Assembly (NCBI GenBank): GCA_963205385.1
Contig: CAUJKE010000115.1
Span: forward strand, 1 to 64,000
Direction: 5' to 3'
Length of the DNA stretch: 64,000 nt
Source: Planctomycetota bacterium
GTDB taxonomy: Bacteria; Planctomycetota; Planctomycetia; Pirellulales; Pirellulaceae
Shown here: positions 9,462 through 64,000 of the stretch, piece by piece
Layout: every line of letters starts with the position of its first letter
Position numbering within the stretch: position 1 is the stretch's first letter
The notes under the pieces: generated by a model
Seen by the model: the letters and a program-made list of their open reading frames with translations, nothing else
Told to the model about the DNA's origin: nothing
The model's database searches: none
Program-made: the position numbers and the translations under genes

Positions 9462-10583
9462 CTACGGCGCCGGCTCTTCCGGCACCTGGTCGACGCCGGC
9501 CCCTAGCGGCGGCACAGGTAAATGGCGCGATCCGCACCACGCGAACAGGACGTTGCGGACTTCGTTCACGAAGCTGAGCGGCTCAGTAGCCGTGAGCGTG
9601 TTGAAGAGCTCTCCCAAGGCGACATAACCCCCACTGACGACCTCCACTTGTCCTTCGACGACCTTTACGAACGGAGCGAGCGCGGCGTCGTCGGTGGCAT
9701 TTTGAACGCGATCGGCGACTTCCTCCCGGCCGACAATTTCCACCATCCACCTCAGGAGCTCGCGCATTACTTCAGCATACGGCTTCGTGTGTTTTTGATC
9801 GAGTTCGATCGACAGCAAGTCGATGCCGACCAGCAATTGTTCCATCTGCTCCAAAAAGATGCCGACCTGGTCGCCCACAATCACGTGTCCATGTTGGGGC
9901 GCGATGATTTCGACGGCCGGCGTGAGCGCGCGGATCTGCCGCACGGCAAAGCGCAAGACTTCGCGCGACGGCATATAAATCTGGTGAAAATGCGCGACGC
10001 CTGCCCAATCGTGTTCTTCGGCGAACAGATGGACGCGGCCCAGTTGGTTCAGTCCGCCGAACAGGTCGCCGGAGAAGAGCGTGCGAATCTCGGGATCGTA
10101 GAACGCCACCGCGCCGCGAAAATGACAAAACGGCGTAGGCACGACTTGCCACCGCGGCGTGTTGCCGAGCACCATCGTTCGACGATCCGTCTCGCCAGCG
10201 AATTCGAGCCGCCCCGGGACGAAGGCCAAATGCTGCGCCAGGCGCCACGTTTCTTGCGACGTGACGAGGCTCATCCGCGCGTTGGCCGCGCAAAACTCCG
10301 GCGCGTTGCCGATCACGTCGGGATCCTGATGATTGACGGAAATCGAGTTGACCTGGCTTATTCCGCCAATGAGCTGCGAGAGATTAGCGTCGATGACGGG
10401 GAAGTCGTAACGCGAACCGGGGTCGATGCAGACGTTGTAAGGGCGCGGCGCTTCATCGAAAATCCGCAAGTACGTGTTGCATTGCAACAGCGACGTGGGG
10501 TTGCGGTAGCCGATCATCCAACAGTTCGGGGCGATGCGGAGCGGCTGGGGCGACAAAGGTCGCGGCGCGGCGGGAGTGGTCAT
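9462..10583 (-). CDS. MBL-fold protein of the oxygen-binding diiron (ODP)/flavodiiron-like family
   Basis: Start MTTPAAPRPLSP; motifs NHQDPDVIG, TPFCHFRGAVAFYDPEIRTLFSGDLFGG and IAPQHGHVI. Confidence 0.75.
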   Translation of the reverse strand: MTTPAAPRPLSPQPLRIAPNCWMIGYRNPTSLLQCNTYLRIFDEAPRPYNVCIDPGSRYDFPVIDANLSQLIGGISQVNSISVNHQDPDVIGNAPEFCAANARMSLVTSQETWRLAQHLAFVPGRLEFAGETDRRTMVLGNTPRWQVVPTPFCHFRGAVAFYDPEIRTLFSGDLFGGLNQLGRVHLFAEEHDWAGVAHFHQIYMPSREVLRFAVRQIRALTPAVEIIAPQHGHVIVGDQVGIFLEQMEQLLVGIDLLSIELDQKHTKPYAEVMRELLRWMVEIVGREEVADRVQNATDDAALAPFVKVVEGQVEVVSGGYVALGELFNTLTATEPLSFVNEVRNVLFAWCGSRHLPVPPLGAGVDQVPEEPAP

Positions 10584-10638
10584 GGCACTGCTCTCAATTG
10601 GAGGGGTGAGGGAAAGTCCGGCTCCACGGCGAACCGCG

Positions 10639-12372
10639 CTAATCCTGGGTTTCTTCGACAACTTCCTGAGACGCCGCGGCAGGCGACTGCCGAAACGCAA
10701 ACGGCATCAACCTGCGCAAGAAGGACTTCACCGTTGATTCCTCGTCAGCGGGCGACTCCTCAGGCGACGAAACGAGGACCACCGGCGGCGGAGCATCCAC
10801 CGCATGGACCCAACGGTCCATCTCCTGGTAACTCGCGAAGCCAGGCGCGGCCATGACTACCTGCTTCCAGCGCGCGCGGTGCGCTTCAGAAACACTGCCG
10901 ACGCGGGCAGTCTCCAGATGCACGACACGATCGGTATAACGAATTCTCGCCTCGACGCTGATGCGACCTTGCGAATTATAAGCGTAGGTCACTTCGACAG
11001 GCCATTGATCGGTCATATCCGGGGGCAAGTTGCGAATGGCGACGCGGCCGATGAGCACACACTTCTCAGGATCGGTGCTTTCCCCTTCCAGCACTTTGAT
11101 GATGATGGAATGTTGATTATTTTGCCGTGTGGCAAAGTCGCGCGTCACCTTGGCGGGAAGCGGCGTTCCGCGCGGCAAAAGGATCTTGTTGATCTTGCGG
11201 CCGTCGTCTGGATCGACACCTTCGATTCCCAAGCTATGCGTACTGACATTGATCAAATCAAAGTGCGGCATGCGGCCGATCGCTTCCCCGACTTGCAATA
11301 AATTCGCGGCGAAGAGCGCCGCGCCGCGCGCGACCGCTTCATCGGGGCTGATGCGCCCATCCGGCTCTTTGCCAAACTTCTTCCGCAAGGCTTGCGAAAT
11401 CATAGGCATCCGCGTAGCGCCGCCGACGAGCAGAAGTTGCGTGAGCTCGCCGGTTTTCCAGCCTGCGGTCGCAAACAGTCGCGCGCACAGCGCCAGCGTC
11501 TTGTCGAGCAAGTCCGCTGTCATCTCCTCAAACTCGGCGCGCGTGACGCGAACTTTGGAGATTTTGCCCTCGAAGGTGAGTGACACCGTCGTGTGGCTGC
11601 GGAGGCTCAGCGCGACTTTGGCGCGCACCGCAAGTTGCAATAGGACATCGAGCCCCGCAGCCGTATCGCGCGGATCGATCTCGTGCTCCCGGATAAAACA
11701 TTCCGCGAAGCGATCCGCCAAACGCATGTCCCAATCGTGACCCCCCAGGTCGGGCAAGTGATCGGTCGCGACGGTGCGAATGGTCCCGTCCGCAATTTCG
11801 ATCAACGTGGCTTCAAACGTGTATCCACCGAGGTCGTAAATGAGGAATCGAGCGGGCGCGGCGGGGTTCACCTGAGGGTCGAACAGCGGCGTGTGTTCAC
11901 CATAGGCCACGACGGCGGCCACCGGTTCGTTCATAATATCCAGCACTCGCAAGCCAGCCATTTCGCCGGCGGCGGCGGTTGCTTGCCGTTGCGCCTCGTT
12001 AAAATGGGCGGGCACCGTAATCACGACGCCCCCTTCATTCCCCAGCCCATACAGCAACGACAAACGGAGTTGGTTCAGAATGCAAGCTTGCAACACTTCC
12101 GGTGGCACGCGGAGGCCATTGATCGGCTGATGATAGTAGGGCTGCCCCATGTCCCGTTTGGGACACGCCGCCAGGTACGAAGCCCGCGAGCGCCCGCGTA
12201 AGCGAGCTTCCTGTCCGACCACCGTGCGATCGACATCGAATAACACCACGCTCGGCACAAGGCATTCGCCTTCGCGGTCGCGGAGGATTTCAGAATGCCC
12301 GGCGGCGTTGACCCTGGCCGCAACCGTGTGCGTCGTCCCCAGATCGATGCCTACCGCAAACAAATTCGACAT
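10639..12372 (-). CDS. Hsp70 family protein (DnaK-like)
   Basis: [27 protein letters not shown] and [13 protein letters not shown] motifs; shortened C-terminus relative to DnaK. Confidence 0.9.
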
Positions 12373-57985: not shown

Positions 57986-58024
57986 TCGTGGTGCAAACCG
58001 TCGCCGCGATTAGGAGTGAGTTCC

Positions 58025-59452
58025 ATGGACTACATCGAAAACCGGACCTTCAACGAAATCTCTATCGGCGACGTGGCGAGCTTGACTCGTGTGCTGACCA
58101 GGGATGACATCTTGCTGTTTGCCGCCGTGTCTGGCGACGTAAACCCCGCCCACGTTGACGAAGAATTCGCGCGCAGTGATATCTTTCAAAAGATCATCGC
58201 ACATGGCATGTGGGGCGCCTCGCTGATTTCGACGGTCCTTGGTACCGTGTTGCCAGGTCCTGGCGCCATCTACGTCGGCCAGACGCTGCAGTTTCGCCGG
58301 CCGGTCGCGGTCGGAGACACAATCACTGTTACCGTCAAAGCACAGGAAAAACACGCGGACAAGCGACGCGTGATATTCGACTGCCAATGCACGAACCAGG
58401 CCGGCGAGGTCGTCATCGCGGGGACGGCCGAAGTGATCGCCCCGGCGGAGAAGGTTAAACGACCGAAGATGATGCTCCCCGAAGTGCAGGTTCATGATCA
58501 GTATGCCCGCTATCGTGAACTAATGCGACTTGTGGAGGGATTGCCGCCTATTCGGACGGCGGTCGTGCATCCGGCCGACGATCTTTCCGTTGTTGCCGCC
58601 CTAGAAGCCGCAAAGCTCGGACTAATCGACCCTGTCTTGGTCGGCCCAGAGGCGAGAATTCGCGCGGTTGCGAAGGCCAACGGTCGCGAAATCGACCGTT
58701 ACACCATCGTTCCCACGCGACACAGTCATGAGGCGGCGGAGCGCGCCGTGGCCATGGCCCGTGCAGCCGAAGTCGATGCGCTAATGAAGGGCAGCCTGGC
58801 GACTGAGGAGCTAATGGCGGCGGTCCGCGCGGCAGACACGGGTCTCCGCACGGAGCGGCAGTTGAGCCATGCCTTCGCGCTCGACGTGCCCCACTTTCCT
58901 CGCCCGCTTTTTTTGACGGATGCGGTCGTCAACGTGAACCCGACGTTGCTCGATAAGCGCGACATCATTCAGAACAGCGTTGAGTTATTGCACGCGCTGG
59001 GACAGGATCTTCCGAAGGTTGCTATCCTGGCCGCGTACGAACGAGTCGAACCGCACGTACGCTCCACGATAGAAGCGGCGGCGCTCTGCAAAATGGCCGA
59101 TCGCGGCCAAATTACCGGCGCCGTTCTCGACGGACCACTGGCGTTCGACACCGCCACGTCCGCGGTTGCCGCCCAGGAGAATGCGGTTGAATCGCCCGTC
59201 GCCGGCGCGGCGGACATCGTGCTAGTGCCAGCTCTAGTGGTCGGTCAGATGCTCGTACAACAGTTGGAAACGTTGGCTGGCGTGCGGGCCGCGGGTCTTG
59301 TTCTGGGTGCGCGCGTTCCCATCGTGCTTTCGGGACCAGGCGACACGGAGGGTACGTTGACCGCGTCGTGCGCCCTCGCGGTACTTTTGGCACACGCACA
59401 AAAGCGGCGTGCAACCATCGAGAAGCCGGTGCGCGCGGTACCGTCCCCCTAG
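58025..59452 (+). CDS. Bifunctional MaoC-like enoyl-CoA hydratase / phosphate acetyl(butyryl)transferase
   Basis: N-terminal MaoC domain (GDVNPAHVDEEFARS...IAHGMWGASLISTVLGTVLPGPGAIYVGQ) fused to PTA/PTB domain (ADVDALMKGSLATEELM-like, SHAFALDVPHFPRPLFLTDAVVNVNP). Confidence 0.93.
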   Translation: MDYIENRTFNEISIGDVASLTRVLTRDDILLFAAVSGDVNPAHVDEEFARSDIFQKIIAHGMWGASLISTVLGTVLPGPGAIYVGQTLQFRRPVAVGDTITVTVKAQEKHADKRRVIFDCQCTNQAGEVVIAGTAEVIAPAEKVKRPKMMLPEVQVHDQYARYRELMRLVEGLPPIRTAVVHPADDLSVVAALEAAKLGLIDPVLVGPEARIRAVAKANGREIDRYTIVPTRHSHEAAERAVAMARAAEVDALMKGSLATEELMAAVRAADTGLRTERQLSHAFALDVPHFPRPLFLTDAVVNVNPTLLDKRDIIQNSVELLHALGQDLPKVAILAAYERVEPHVRSTIEAAALCKMADRGQITGAVLDGPLAFDTATSAVAAQENAVESPVAGAADIVLVPALVVGQMLVQQLETLAGVRAAGLVLGARVPIVLSGPGDTEGTLTASCALAVLLAHAQKRRATIEKPVRAVPSP

Positions 59453-59646: not shown

Positions 59647-60714
59647 ATGCACGCGAACCTCATGTTTCCACTTTTCCTCGTGTTATTGTTTACCGTTAAC
59701 TCCTTGGCGGGTGAACAGGTTAAAGAAAGCGAATCGCTCGAAAACAGGCCACTGATTCTTGAGATGCACGCATGGCGGATTAAAGACGGCAAGCTACATC
59801 GCATGGATGCGGAGGTGCAATTGCCGCGCGAAACGGTCGGCTTGGCGTTGGATCGCCGTCGGGCAGGTGGGCGCAATGGATTGATTCAATTCAGCACGCG
59901 ACAAGGGGACGTCTTGTGGCGCAATTCGGTTCATGTGCGTGAGATTCAACGAGACCGGGTGGACATCAAATTTGAGACGTGCATTTCCGAAGGAGATTTT
60001 CGGCTTCAAGGAAGATTCGAGGCCACACCGTCTCCAACCGATAAGGCCGTGGAAAATGTCAACAAGAAACAACGTTACGGTTATCAGGCCGTGCCGTTGG
60101 ATAAGTGTGTGACAAGGACGGCGGGCGGTGGTTGGCGTCTGGGCGCAGACCTGGAGTGGGTGCGAGATGACGGATGGTTCGACGCGCGCATGGAGATGAA
60201 AGATGCTCCGCTCGCATTACTCATTTGGGTGCGCACCGAACAGGATCCCCTGCCGGACATCATCAGAGCTTTAGAACGCAAGAATTCATCCTTCTTTCCC
60301 GCTGCGATAGCGGCAGGTTGGCGCAGCGCGGACGCGGATCCTGCGGTTCCATTTCTCATCGATGCGTTAAACGACGATGGCACTACAGAACGTCGCTTGG
60401 AGAATGCCAGAGAGGACAAGACGGGTTGGCGGCCCCGCGCGGCGGCGGCGGAAGCGTTGGGACGGATTGGGCCCGTGGCCAAGGAGGCGGTGCCGCGGTT
60501 GACCGAGCTATTGAAAGACGAATTCGAAGGCGTGCGCTATCAAGCCGCCATCGCGCTCGGCGAGATTCGGCATCCCGACCCAGAGGCGATCGCGGCGCTG
60601 GAAGCGTTGGCCAAATCAACCAACGACGTTCGCCTGCGCGAGTTCGCAGAGGACTCGCTCTGCCAACTGCAACGCGCCGCGCGCAAGGAAGCCAAAAAGT
60701 CTGCAGCGCCATAG
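59647..60714 (+). CDS. Secreted HEAT-repeat protein (paralogue 1)
   Basis: Signal peptide; C-terminal AAAEALGRIGPVAKEAVPRLTELLKDEFEGVRYQAAIALGEI HEAT repeats. Confidence 0.8.
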   Translation: MHANLMFPLFLVLLFTVNSLAGEQVKESESLENRPLILEMHAWRIKDGKLHRMDAEVQLPRETVGLALDRRRAGGRNGLIQFSTRQGDVLWRNSVHVREIQRDRVDIKFETCISEGDFRLQGRFEATPSPTDKAVENVNKKQRYGYQAVPLDKCVTRTAGGGWRLGADLEWVRDDGWFDARMEMKDAPLALLIWVRTEQDPLPDIIRALERKNSSFFPAAIAAGWRSADADPAVPFLIDALNDDGTTERRLENAREDKTGWRPRAAAAEALGRIGPVAKEAVPRLTELLKDEFEGVRYQAAIALGEIRHPDPEAIAALEALAKSTNDVRLREFAEDSLCQLQRAARKEAKKSAAP

Positions 60715-60794: not shown

Positions 60795-61799
60795 ATGAAG
60801 TCCATCGTTATCCTTCCGCTGGTTTTGGGATTGGTATTTGGCGCTAGGGCGCAGGGCGATGAAACAGTGCCTGCGAAAGAGACACCGGAGTACAGGCCGA
60901 TCTTTGTCGAAATACACGCGTGGCGGATTAAGGATGGGAAGTTATATCGGATGGATACGGACCTCGAATTGCCCCGTGAAATTGTTGAACTCGCTGCGGC
61001 GAAGAAGCTACCAGAGACGCGTGGACGTTTTCGTTTCAGCACTCGGCAGGATGGTGTCTTGTGGCACAACTCCGTACAAGTGAGAAGTATTGATCATGAC
61101 CGCGCGGATATCAGAACCGAAACGAGCATTTCGGAAGGTGACTTTCGCGTCCAAGGGGCGCACGAATCCGTGATCAGCTCAGAACTCGACAGAGTCGCGG
61201 CCAACCATTCGACTAGCTGGCCATTGGTTGGAGGATTCCAGTGGTTTCGCTATTTTAGCGGGTTTGACAGACGAATGCAAATGGAGGAAGACTTGCTCAG
61301 AGTTTACACATGGGTTCGGCTGGAACAGGATCCGATGCCAGAACTCATCAAAATATTCGAGCGCAAAGATTCCTTGTTTTTTTCGGCCGCGCTGTGCGCA
61401 GGGTGGCGCAGCGCGGATGCCGAGGCGGCAGTTCCTTTTCTCGTCGACGCATTGAGTGCTGATGGTTCGACGCGGCGCCGAGTGCGCGATCGGCCAGGCG
61501 ACAACACCGGTTGGCGCGCCCGCGCGGCGGCGGCGGAAGCGTTGGGACGGATTGGGCCCGTGGCCAAGGAGGCGGTGCCGCGGTTGACCGAGCTGTTGAA
61601 TGATGAATTCGAAGGCGTGCGCTATCAAGCCGCCATCGCGCTCGGCGAGATTCGGCATCCCGATCCAGAGGCGATCGCGGCGCTGGAAGCGTTGGCCAAA
61701 TCAACCAACGACGTTCGCCTGCGCGAGTTCGCAGAGGACTCGCTCTGCCACCTGCAACGCGCCGCGCGGAAGGAAGCCAAAAAGTCTCCGGCGCCATAG
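60795..61799 (+). CDS. Secreted HEAT-repeat protein (paralogue 2)
   Basis: Start MKSIVILPLVLGLVFGARA after AAGGAG; C-terminus almost identical to paralogue 1. Confidence 0.82.
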   Translation: MKSIVILPLVLGLVFGARAQGDETVPAKETPEYRPIFVEIHAWRIKDGKLYRMDTDLELPREIVELAAAKKLPETRGRFRFSTRQDGVLWHNSVQVRSIDHDRADIRTETSISEGDFRVQGAHESVISSELDRVAANHSTSWPLVGGFQWFRYFSGFDRRMQMEEDLLRVYTWVRLEQDPMPELIKIFERKDSLFFSAALCAGWRSADAEAAVPFLVDALSADGSTRRRVRDRPGDNTGWRARAAAAEALGRIGPVAKEAVPRLTELLNDEFEGVRYQAAIALGEIRHPDPEAIAALEALAKSTNDVRLREFAEDSLCHLQRAARKEAKKSPAP

Positions 61800-62545: not shown

Positions 62546-62845
62546 ATGACGGACCAAGCCAAGCCCGCCGATCGCCAAGGGACGCGGGTCACATTTCTCG
62601 ATCAAACCGGGGCCAAGAGTGTGGAGGCGGTGATTGCCGACACTGTCTCGGTCAAGCGCATTTTGCCCAACATCATCACCAAGATGAATCTGCCGGTGAT
62701 GGGGCCTGACGGCCAGCCAATGAGCTATTCCCTCGACCACAAGGAAGGGGGCAAGCGGTTGCGTGAAGATCAAACGTTGCCTACGGCTTCCGTCCGCGAC
62801 GGCGACCACTTGATTGTGTATCCGGAAATTGTCGCCGGGGCTTAA
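62546..62845 (+). CDS. Ubiquitin-like beta-grasp protein (EsaB/YukD-like)
   Basis: RVTFLDQTGAKSVEAVIADTVSVKRILPNIITKMNLP...YSLDHKEGGKRLREDQTLPTASVRDGDHLIVYPEIVAGA; next to an E2 gene. Confidence 0.75.
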   Translation: MTDQAKPADRQGTRVTFLDQTGAKSVEAVIADTVSVKRILPNIITKMNLPVMGPDGQPMSYSLDHKEGGKRLREDQTLPTASVRDGDHLIVYPEIVAGA

Positions 62846-62875: not shown

Positions 62876-63622
62876 ATGGCGGAATCTCCTCGTAATCGCC
62901 GACTTCGCGCCGATCACCGGGCATTGGAAACGTTGAAGCGCGAAAGCAACATCTTCGATTTCGTCGCCCGCGGCGAGATGCCGGATACGTATCTCTTGGT
63001 ATTCAACGGGCGAGGCGTCTATCGGAGCGATCCCGCGGCGCCGGTCATGCCTAACGACCGCCACGAAGTTTATCTGCGCTTGGGGGCGGCCTATCCGCGG
63101 ATGATGCCGGAACTGACCTGGCGTTCGCCGATCTTTCATCCCAATATTTCGTCCAGCGGCGTGGTTTGTCTCGGCGGGTATGGAACGTATTGGGTGCCGA
63201 GCTTGAGCCTCGACGAGTTGTGCACCATGCTGTGGGACATGATTCGCTTCGAGAACTACGATCCCAATAGCCCGTACAATCGAGAAGCGGCAATTTGGGC
63301 GAAGCAGCAAAAGGATTATCGCTTCCCACTCGACGCACGTCCGATCCGCGACCGCGTGGCGCAACAGCCGCGGGCCAGGCAGCCAGCAAAGCCGCAGCCA
63401 GCGACGCCGCAGCCAGTCAAGCCGCAGCTAAACAAGCCGCAGCCGCACTCGACGCCGCCAACCGTATTGTCGCCAACTTCATCGCCGGCGCCACCTTTGC
63501 CGCAACCAGTCGCTAATCACGGGCCAACCTCCGACGGCATCCTGTTCCTCAGCGAGGAGATCGTGGAGGCGGAGGTTTTAGAAGATAGCGACAGCACGGC
63601 GGAGATCCTGTTCATCGATTAG
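62876..63622 (+). CDS. Ubiquitin-conjugating enzyme E2-like (UBC) protein with Pro-rich linker and acidic C-terminal tail
   Basis: AYPRMMPELTWRSPIFHPNISSSGVVCLGGYGTYWVPSLSLDELCTMLWDMIRFENYDPNSPYNREAAIW: HPN motif with Cys98 (codon 63167-63169). Confidence 0.92.
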   Translation: MAESPRNRRLRADHRALETLKRESNIFDFVARGEMPDTYLLVFNGRGVYRSDPAAPVMPNDRHEVYLRLGAAYPRMMPELTWRSPIFHPNISSSGVVCLGGYGTYWVPSLSLDELCTMLWDMIRFENYDPNSPYNREAAIWAKQQKDYRFPLDARPIRDRVAQQPRARQPAKPQPATPQPVKPQLNKPQPHSTPPTVLSPTSSPAPPLPQPVANHGPTSDGILFLSEEIVEAEVLEDSDSTAEILFID

Positions 63623-63656: not shown

Positions 63657-64000
63657 ATGTCTCCGTCGCCTACAACTTTACTTTCCGAATTTGGCATTCA
63701 GCAGCGTGGGAAGGCGATAGGCGTCATCTATGCGGATGCGCCGGTGGTGCTGATGCAGGGGAACGCGTTGGACGCACTCGTGGCCTATTCGATGGAGGAT
63801 TTGCAGCGCGAGCAGGGCGCGTTTTTGTTAGGGGTGCGGCATACTAAACCCTCGGCGCCGCACGGCGCGGTGGAAGTTCGCCACTTTGTGCGGGCGACCG
63901 AGACCCGCAATTCCAGCGGCGCGATCGCCTTCACGCCGGATACGTGGGCGGCGTTTCATCAGACGGCCCGCGAGCAATACCCGCAGGAAACGTTGCTCGG
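63657..64000 (+). CDS. JAB/MPN-domain (Mov34/PAD-1-like) protein, 3' truncated by window end
   Basis: Hand translation: MSPSPTTLLSEFGIQQRGKAIGVIYADAPVVLMQGNALDALVAYSMEDLQREQGAFLLGVRHTKPSAPHGAVEVRHFVRATETRNSSGAIAFTPDTWAAFHQTAREQYPQETLLG; E-x-GAFLLG JAB-like core; HxH would lie beyond the window. Confidence 0.75.
   Translation, partial: MSPSPTTLLSEFGIQQRGKAIGVIYADAPVVLMQGNALDALVAYSMEDLQREQGAFLLGVRHTKPSAPHGAVEVRHFVRATETRNSSGAIAFTPDTWAAFHQTAREQYPQETLL

Follow-up and report, generated by a model that had tools for sequence, protein, structure and literature searches.

A planctomycete ubiquitin-like protein probably made as a precursor with a one-residue tail past a conserved glycine

The ubiquitin-like protein (Ubl) encoded near the end of the window, by which we mean the whole 64,000-nucleotide stretch of contig C115 analysed here, is likely to be a pro-modifier. 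Comparison with its homologues suggests that it would be trimmed to ...VAG by a JAMM protease of its own operon, more likely JAB-b than JAB-a, and then conjugated covalently. The 3' end of its 99-aa open reading frame (62816-62845) reads GTG TAT CCG GAA ATT GTC GCC GGG GCT TAA, which translates as V-Y-P-E-I-V-A-G-A-stop. This agrees with the first-pass annotation of this DNA, which had described an end in ...EIVAGA rather than a diglycine; indeed, Gly-Gly is absent (...VYPEIVAGA-stop). Eukaryotes trim ubiquitin precursors, and since UFM1 ends in VG and Atg8 in FG, a lone terminal Gly without a second Gly is no bar to conjugation. The operon is cut by the end of the window, and the contig (89.8 kb) continues past position 64,000 (Table 1).

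Table 1. Features of the Ubl gene and its operon; positions marked 'contig' lie beyond the window
Feature	Position	Strand	Evidence or remark
Ubl precursor, 99 aa, YukD/beta-grasp fold	62546..62845	+	mature end predicted at Gly98
GGG codon, Gly98, last conserved residue	62837..62839	+	95/96 homologues
GCT codon, Ala99, one-residue tail	62840..62842	+	trimming proposed
E2a, UBC-fold E2, HPN motif, catalytic Cys98, Pro-rich C-terminal tail	62876..63622	+	Cys98 invariant 77/77
JAB-a, JAMM protease	63657..64000 in window, to contig 64190	+	E52, H118, H120, S128, D131 invariant 27/27
E1	contig 64313-65467	same strand as Ubl	ThiF, 1.7e-56
JAB-b	contig 65690-67102, just outside window	same strand as Ubl	JAB, 6.4e-10
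E2b	contig 67133-67798 (L003:7133-7798)	same strand as Ubl	UQ_con 1.2e-7
Membrane protein, C-terminal Prok-RING_1	contig 67808-68620	same strand as Ubl	2.3e-12

An alignment of Ubl ends, proposed with the annotation as a check on a conserved C-terminal Gly, left the trimming reading standing. The residue aligned to Gly98 was Gly in 95 of 96 distinct homologous Ubls (93 VAG, 2 TAG). Residues just before it were mostly near-invariant and those past it were not. Fifty of the 96 end at the Gly98 position, one of them being the single exception, which has Arg. The other 46 run longer, by 1 residue (n=3, the window Ubl included), 2 (n=13), 3 (n=8) or up to 68, and by 215 in the case of fusion to an E2. 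A conserved Gly followed by a variable tail, here of 0-215 aa, is the mark of a pro-Ubl and was found in 95 of the 96; that the tails are removable is a prediction. The annotation had also seen no cleavable extension, a statement that the alignment overturns by making the final Ala itself a one-residue extension past Gly98. We judged a sequencing error unlikely as the source of this Ala, because one further metagenome-assembled genome (MAG; L028) has the identical Ala tail encoded by different codons.

The tails themselves are erratic. A tree of E1 from 72 loci requires at least 15 switches between tailed and tail-less states, and close relatives may have no tail, GRVES or GAVEG. The Ubl of Tautonia sociabilis (L098), a cultured carrier, is among those without a tail. 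A conserved functional motif in the tail was ruled out by the lack of any conserved column past the Gly, where positions +1 and +2 show a bias in residue size and nothing more. A small residue (A, G, S, C or T) opens the tail in 17 of 23 sequence clusters, whereas the background frequency, taken from translated downstream DNA, is 35% (p=1.4e-4). At the second tail position small residues were found in 13 of 22 clusters (p=0.016), and the same cluster test gave no such bias for the third. A small residue past the Gly may therefore hint at a cleavage site, a hint that is weaker if tails arise from mutated TGA stops, because 50% of the one-step neighbours of TGA encode small residues. Sequences that are fixed up to the Gly and variable beyond it suggest a precursor processed at the Gly, being the pattern expected of one.

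The sole Ubl of the 96 without the Gly reads VAR. Since no E1, E2, JAB or RING was found in the 18 kb of its locus (L075), this Ubl is probably a relic. Across the phylum, three Ubl subfamilies, ending in YPEIVAG, PEITAG and TSTFVAG, mostly share the pattern of a Gly followed by a tail or by none; in the phylum-wide sample, the divergent PEITAG and TSTFVAG subfamilies have tails such as A-RA, A-PGRDA, R-T and FFKIC, or no tail. Three divergent phylum-level Ubls (L148, L157 and L165) lack a Gly at the Gly98 place. In L148 the end of the Ubl has been invaded by a palindromic repeat (CATTCCGTCATTCC...GGAATGACGGAATG), at the cost of the VAG; the 3 kb of the L157 locus contain no partner gene; and L165 has HGDQGG-PR in place of the conserved end. 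The PEITAG(+tail) end belongs to a second, divergent Ubl/E1 system (L024, L026 and L149-L156), which in L024 adjoins, as judged by eye, a HerA-like ATPase ORF and a GYF-type membrane protein. The third subfamily (L158-L164 and L168) ends in LLLTSTFVAG(+tail), has E1, E2 and often JAB matches nearby, and comes mostly from one distant family of the phylum. Planctomycete-like Ubls (74-79% identity) were also seen in MAGs labelled Abditibacteriales, Wallbacteria and Riflebacteria (L083, L092 and L101), reflecting either transfer or misbinning.

The predicted structure fits a precursor. An AlphaFold model of the Ubl (22-sequence alignment, pLDDT 87) has a beta-grasp fold whose last strand ends at residue 94, with residues 95-99 lacking secondary structure, the combination of fold and flexible C-terminus expected of a pro-Ubl. 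When compared with 350,542 PDB chains the model matched ubiquitin and SUMO, and the top two matches were Caldiarchaeum ubiquitin and Caldiarchaeum ubiquitin in complex with an Rpn11-type JAMM. This relation was seen by fold comparison only, as the sequence had no significant homology to solved ubiquitins (E about 1 against that of Caldiarchaeum).

By sequence, the Ubl falls into the YukD family of Pfam (PF08817; E 7.7e-16, 59 bits against a cut-off of 27), and the annotation had offered as its second alternative a non-covalent role like that of EsaB/YukD. YukD is reported to be non-conjugated and part of ESAT-6 export loci (PMC1779556). Were the Ubl such a structural factor of type VII secretion, comparable to YukD/EsaB or to the Ubl domain of EccD, its C-terminus would be irrelevant. 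The Pfam assignment, a weak NCBIfam match to EccD and the presence of ESX structures among the fold matches (ranks 25 and 33) are all compatible with this. However, no WXG100 protein (PF06013) was found in the genome (G000, 97.6% complete), nor was a second YukD-fold protein, and the sole one sits in the E1/E2 operon. Moreover, E1, Cys-E2, JAMMs and RING occur in the operons of nearly all relatives, the catalytic Cys of E2a is kept in 77/77, and Gly98 is near-invariant when everything past it drifts. Genome and operon content thus led us to reject the secretion role, which we consider very improbable.

The genes that adjoin the Ubl, for an E1, a Cys-E2, JAMM proteases and a Prok-RING protein, are those that define the planctomycete E1/E2/RING/JAB/Ubl operons, and conjugation is predicted from their intact catalytic residues. 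The JAMM residues of JAB-b (E63/H128/H130/S138/D141) are kept in 67/67 and the RING cysteines in 57/57, and the RING, at 47 bits, clears the cut-off of 29 for Prok-RING_1 (Pfam PF14446). In the E1 the nucleotide loop is preserved and several Cys are invariant; of these, C187, ahead of a T-A-P-T segment, is a candidate for the thioester Cys. JAB-b has two predicted transmembrane (TM) segments flanking a long charged stretch (a coiled coil by eye). By sequence, the nearest relatives are UBA7/UBA1 and ThiF for E1, CSN5 and Rpn11 for JAB-b, Rad6 for E2a and Ubc13-type E2s for E2b. Gene content was scored in the 62 homologous loci that extend far enough downstream: 61 have an E1, 61 an E2a, 59 JAB-b, 55 the RING gene, 24 JAB-a and 23 E2b. 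Because these loci were drawn from the 80 top-ranking of 176 similarity matches, near relatives are over-represented in the counts. Within the class, 67 of 398 genomes are carriers, a patchy distribution that fits an accessory role.

The architecture of the E1 is of the ThiF type, with zinc-type Cys pairs, as might be expected if the Ubl were a sulfur carrier (ThiS/MoaD/Urm1-like) whose Gly98 is adenylated by E1 and converted to a thiocarboxylate for a biosynthetic pathway. Yet a Cys-E2 and a RING are co-conserved with the Ubl, part of the operons include a Cys-less E2, and no sulfurtransferase or cofactor gene was seen in the operon. We regard a sulfur-carrier role as highly improbable.

The Cys-less E2 is E2b, whose catalytic position holds N, D, S or another residue instead of Cys in 23/23. 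A UBC fold without the catalytic Cys, beside an active-type E2, is what characterises UEV (Mms2-like) proteins, and a partner role for E2b is predicted on this basis. The DNA of E2b and E2a shares a short similarity (83% over 63 bases), which suggests that E2b arose by tandem duplication. After the RING gene lies a Nudix gene on the opposite strand. Elsewhere in the window, 59647-60714 and about 60795-61799 are tandem copies of a gene for a HEAT/PBS-lyase-repeat protein whose start resembles a signal peptide; the 3' halves of the two copies are almost identical. The gene at 58016-59452 joins a MaoC dehydratase domain to a phosphate acetyl/butyryl transferase domain and has a FabI-like reductase gene as its neighbour.

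The longest extensions are natural fusions. In three loci (L043, L047 at 9965-10918, and L044, the last from the same genome as L017, G008) the Ubl stop codon is absent and the frame runs into E2a, with the junction ...EIVAG-SG[VI]RHSPRYRRL... in three genomes. Base differences between the three loci amount to about 4.5 to 16%, and both halves are under purifying selection (dN/dS 0.056 for the Ubl and 0.16 for the E2 core), with 11 synonymous changes and 1 nonsynonymous change at the junction. The first 20 codons past the junction contain no ATG, GTG or TTG able to start a whole E2 alone. G008 has a single Ubl, and a search of that genome with JAB-a returned one protein only, of the JAB-b type. 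A working pathway in these genomes would require a cut after VAG, for which JAB-b would be the evident candidate.

These results bear on the first alternative of the annotation, that a JAB protease trims the Ala to expose ...AG. Comparative evidence favours the cut itself, namely the invariant Gly98, the erratic tails, the natural Ubl-E2 fusions, the JAMM genes in nearly all operons and an archaeal precedent. The JAB visible in the window, by contrast, is absent from many operons with tails. Indeed, JAB-a is missing from many sister operons, including those with tailed or fused Ubls. Tails were found in 14 of 33 loci with JAB-a and in 37 of 77 without it (Fisher p=0.68, some loci being counted more than once), and on the E1 tree there was no trend in 8 independent pairs (starred branches). 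This lack of association, together with the single JAB-b-like match in G008, ruled out JAB-a as a required trimming enzyme. JAB-b is near-universal, and too widespread for an association test with tails. Since JAB-a is absent from many operons, tailed and fused ones among them, trimming by JAB-b is more likely, although JAB-a may share in it where present.

It is also conceivable that a general carboxypeptidase, rather than an operon JAB, exposes the Gly and that the JABs serve deconjugation only. The window tail is one Ala, removable by a housekeeping enzyme; tails have no association with JAB-a; and half of the relatives are tail-less yet retain JAB-b, so that deconjugation alone could explain the JABs. 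However, tails of 21-68 residues and whole E2 domains need a precise endoprotease, the fusion genome offered a JAB-b-like match when searched with JAB-a, and Caldiarchaeum, the archaeon whose ubiquitin is the closest in fold, relies on its own JAMM. We therefore consider a carboxypeptidase unlikely and favour trimming by a JAMM of the operon.

We propose the following pathway. The Ubl would be translated with Ala99 one residue past its functional C-terminus, and an operon JAMM, more likely the membrane-anchored JAB-b than JAB-a, would take off the Ala to expose Gly98 (...YPEIVAG). E1 would then adenylate Gly98 and hand the Ubl to Cys98 of E2a, which, probably aided by the Cys-less E2b as a UEV-like partner and by the membrane RING, would attach it to substrates near the membrane. 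The JABs may also detach the Ubl again. More tentatively, and with somewhat less than even confidence, we envisage a membrane-based bacterial Ubl cascade in which a transmembrane JAMM matures the modifier, one cut of a Ubl-E2 polyprotein frees both modifier and E2 in some genomes, and a membrane RING and a UEV-like E2 that lacks the Cys act together with an active E2. If Gly98 is the end of the modifier, it indicates which form of the Ubl matters, and the case for JAB-b points to an enzyme beyond the window as the likelier trimmer. The Ubl-E2 fusions and the Gly-less orphan Ubl (L075) are natural tests of true conjugation in bacterial systems.

Finally, we compared this operon with known systems. 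Its Ubl domain shares family PF08817 with YukD, EsaB and EccD, but these are parts of type VII secretion, whereas here the context is E1/E2/RING/JAMM and the terminal Gly is conserved. Bil, Bub and type II CBASS resemble it in bacterial E1/E2/JAB-type conjugation, here predicted from the genes; they differ in that our E1 and E2 are separate genes and that a RING and a UEV-like E2 are present. PADLOC gave only weak, generic matches, to E1-E2, BilD, BilC and JAB models. It returned no match for the Ubl or either E2 (2023 library, which may lack Bub), so that the operon was not assigned to Bil, Bub or CBASS, and it provided no evidence of an antiphage function. Operons of E1, E2, RING, JAB and Ubl genes were predicted in Planctomycetes and others by Burroughs, Iyer and Aravind in 2011, as cited in PMC4197634, and going by that citation the component set (Ubl, E1, E2, JAB and Prok-RING) is the same and the class of system is one already predicted for Planctomycetes. 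The tail pattern, the Ubl-E2 fusions, the Cys-less second E2 and the two JABs, including a TM JAB, may or may not have been described earlier.

The closest parallel by Ubl fold is Caldiarchaeum subterraneum, in which an operon encodes the same enzyme classes (pro-Ub, E1, E2, small RING and Rpn11/JAMM). There, the JAMM removes a 9-aa tail from pro-ubiquitin exactly after Gly-Gly, and the E1 rejects uncut pro-ubiquitin (PMC5654768, PMC6043591). Pro-ubiquitin with Ala at the last Gly position is still cut, but larger residues are not tolerated (PMC6043591). Tail removal by a JAMM is thus demonstrated in the archaeon and predicted here; if true conjugation takes place, a bacterial RING-type pathway would join archaeal ubiquitin as a case of precursor trimming by a JAMM. 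The two systems nevertheless differ: Caldiarchaeum has a GG end, a 9-aa tail and one Rpn11, whereas the planctomycete operon has an AG end, a one-residue tail and two JAMMs, one with predicted TM segments, together with a second, Cys-less E2.
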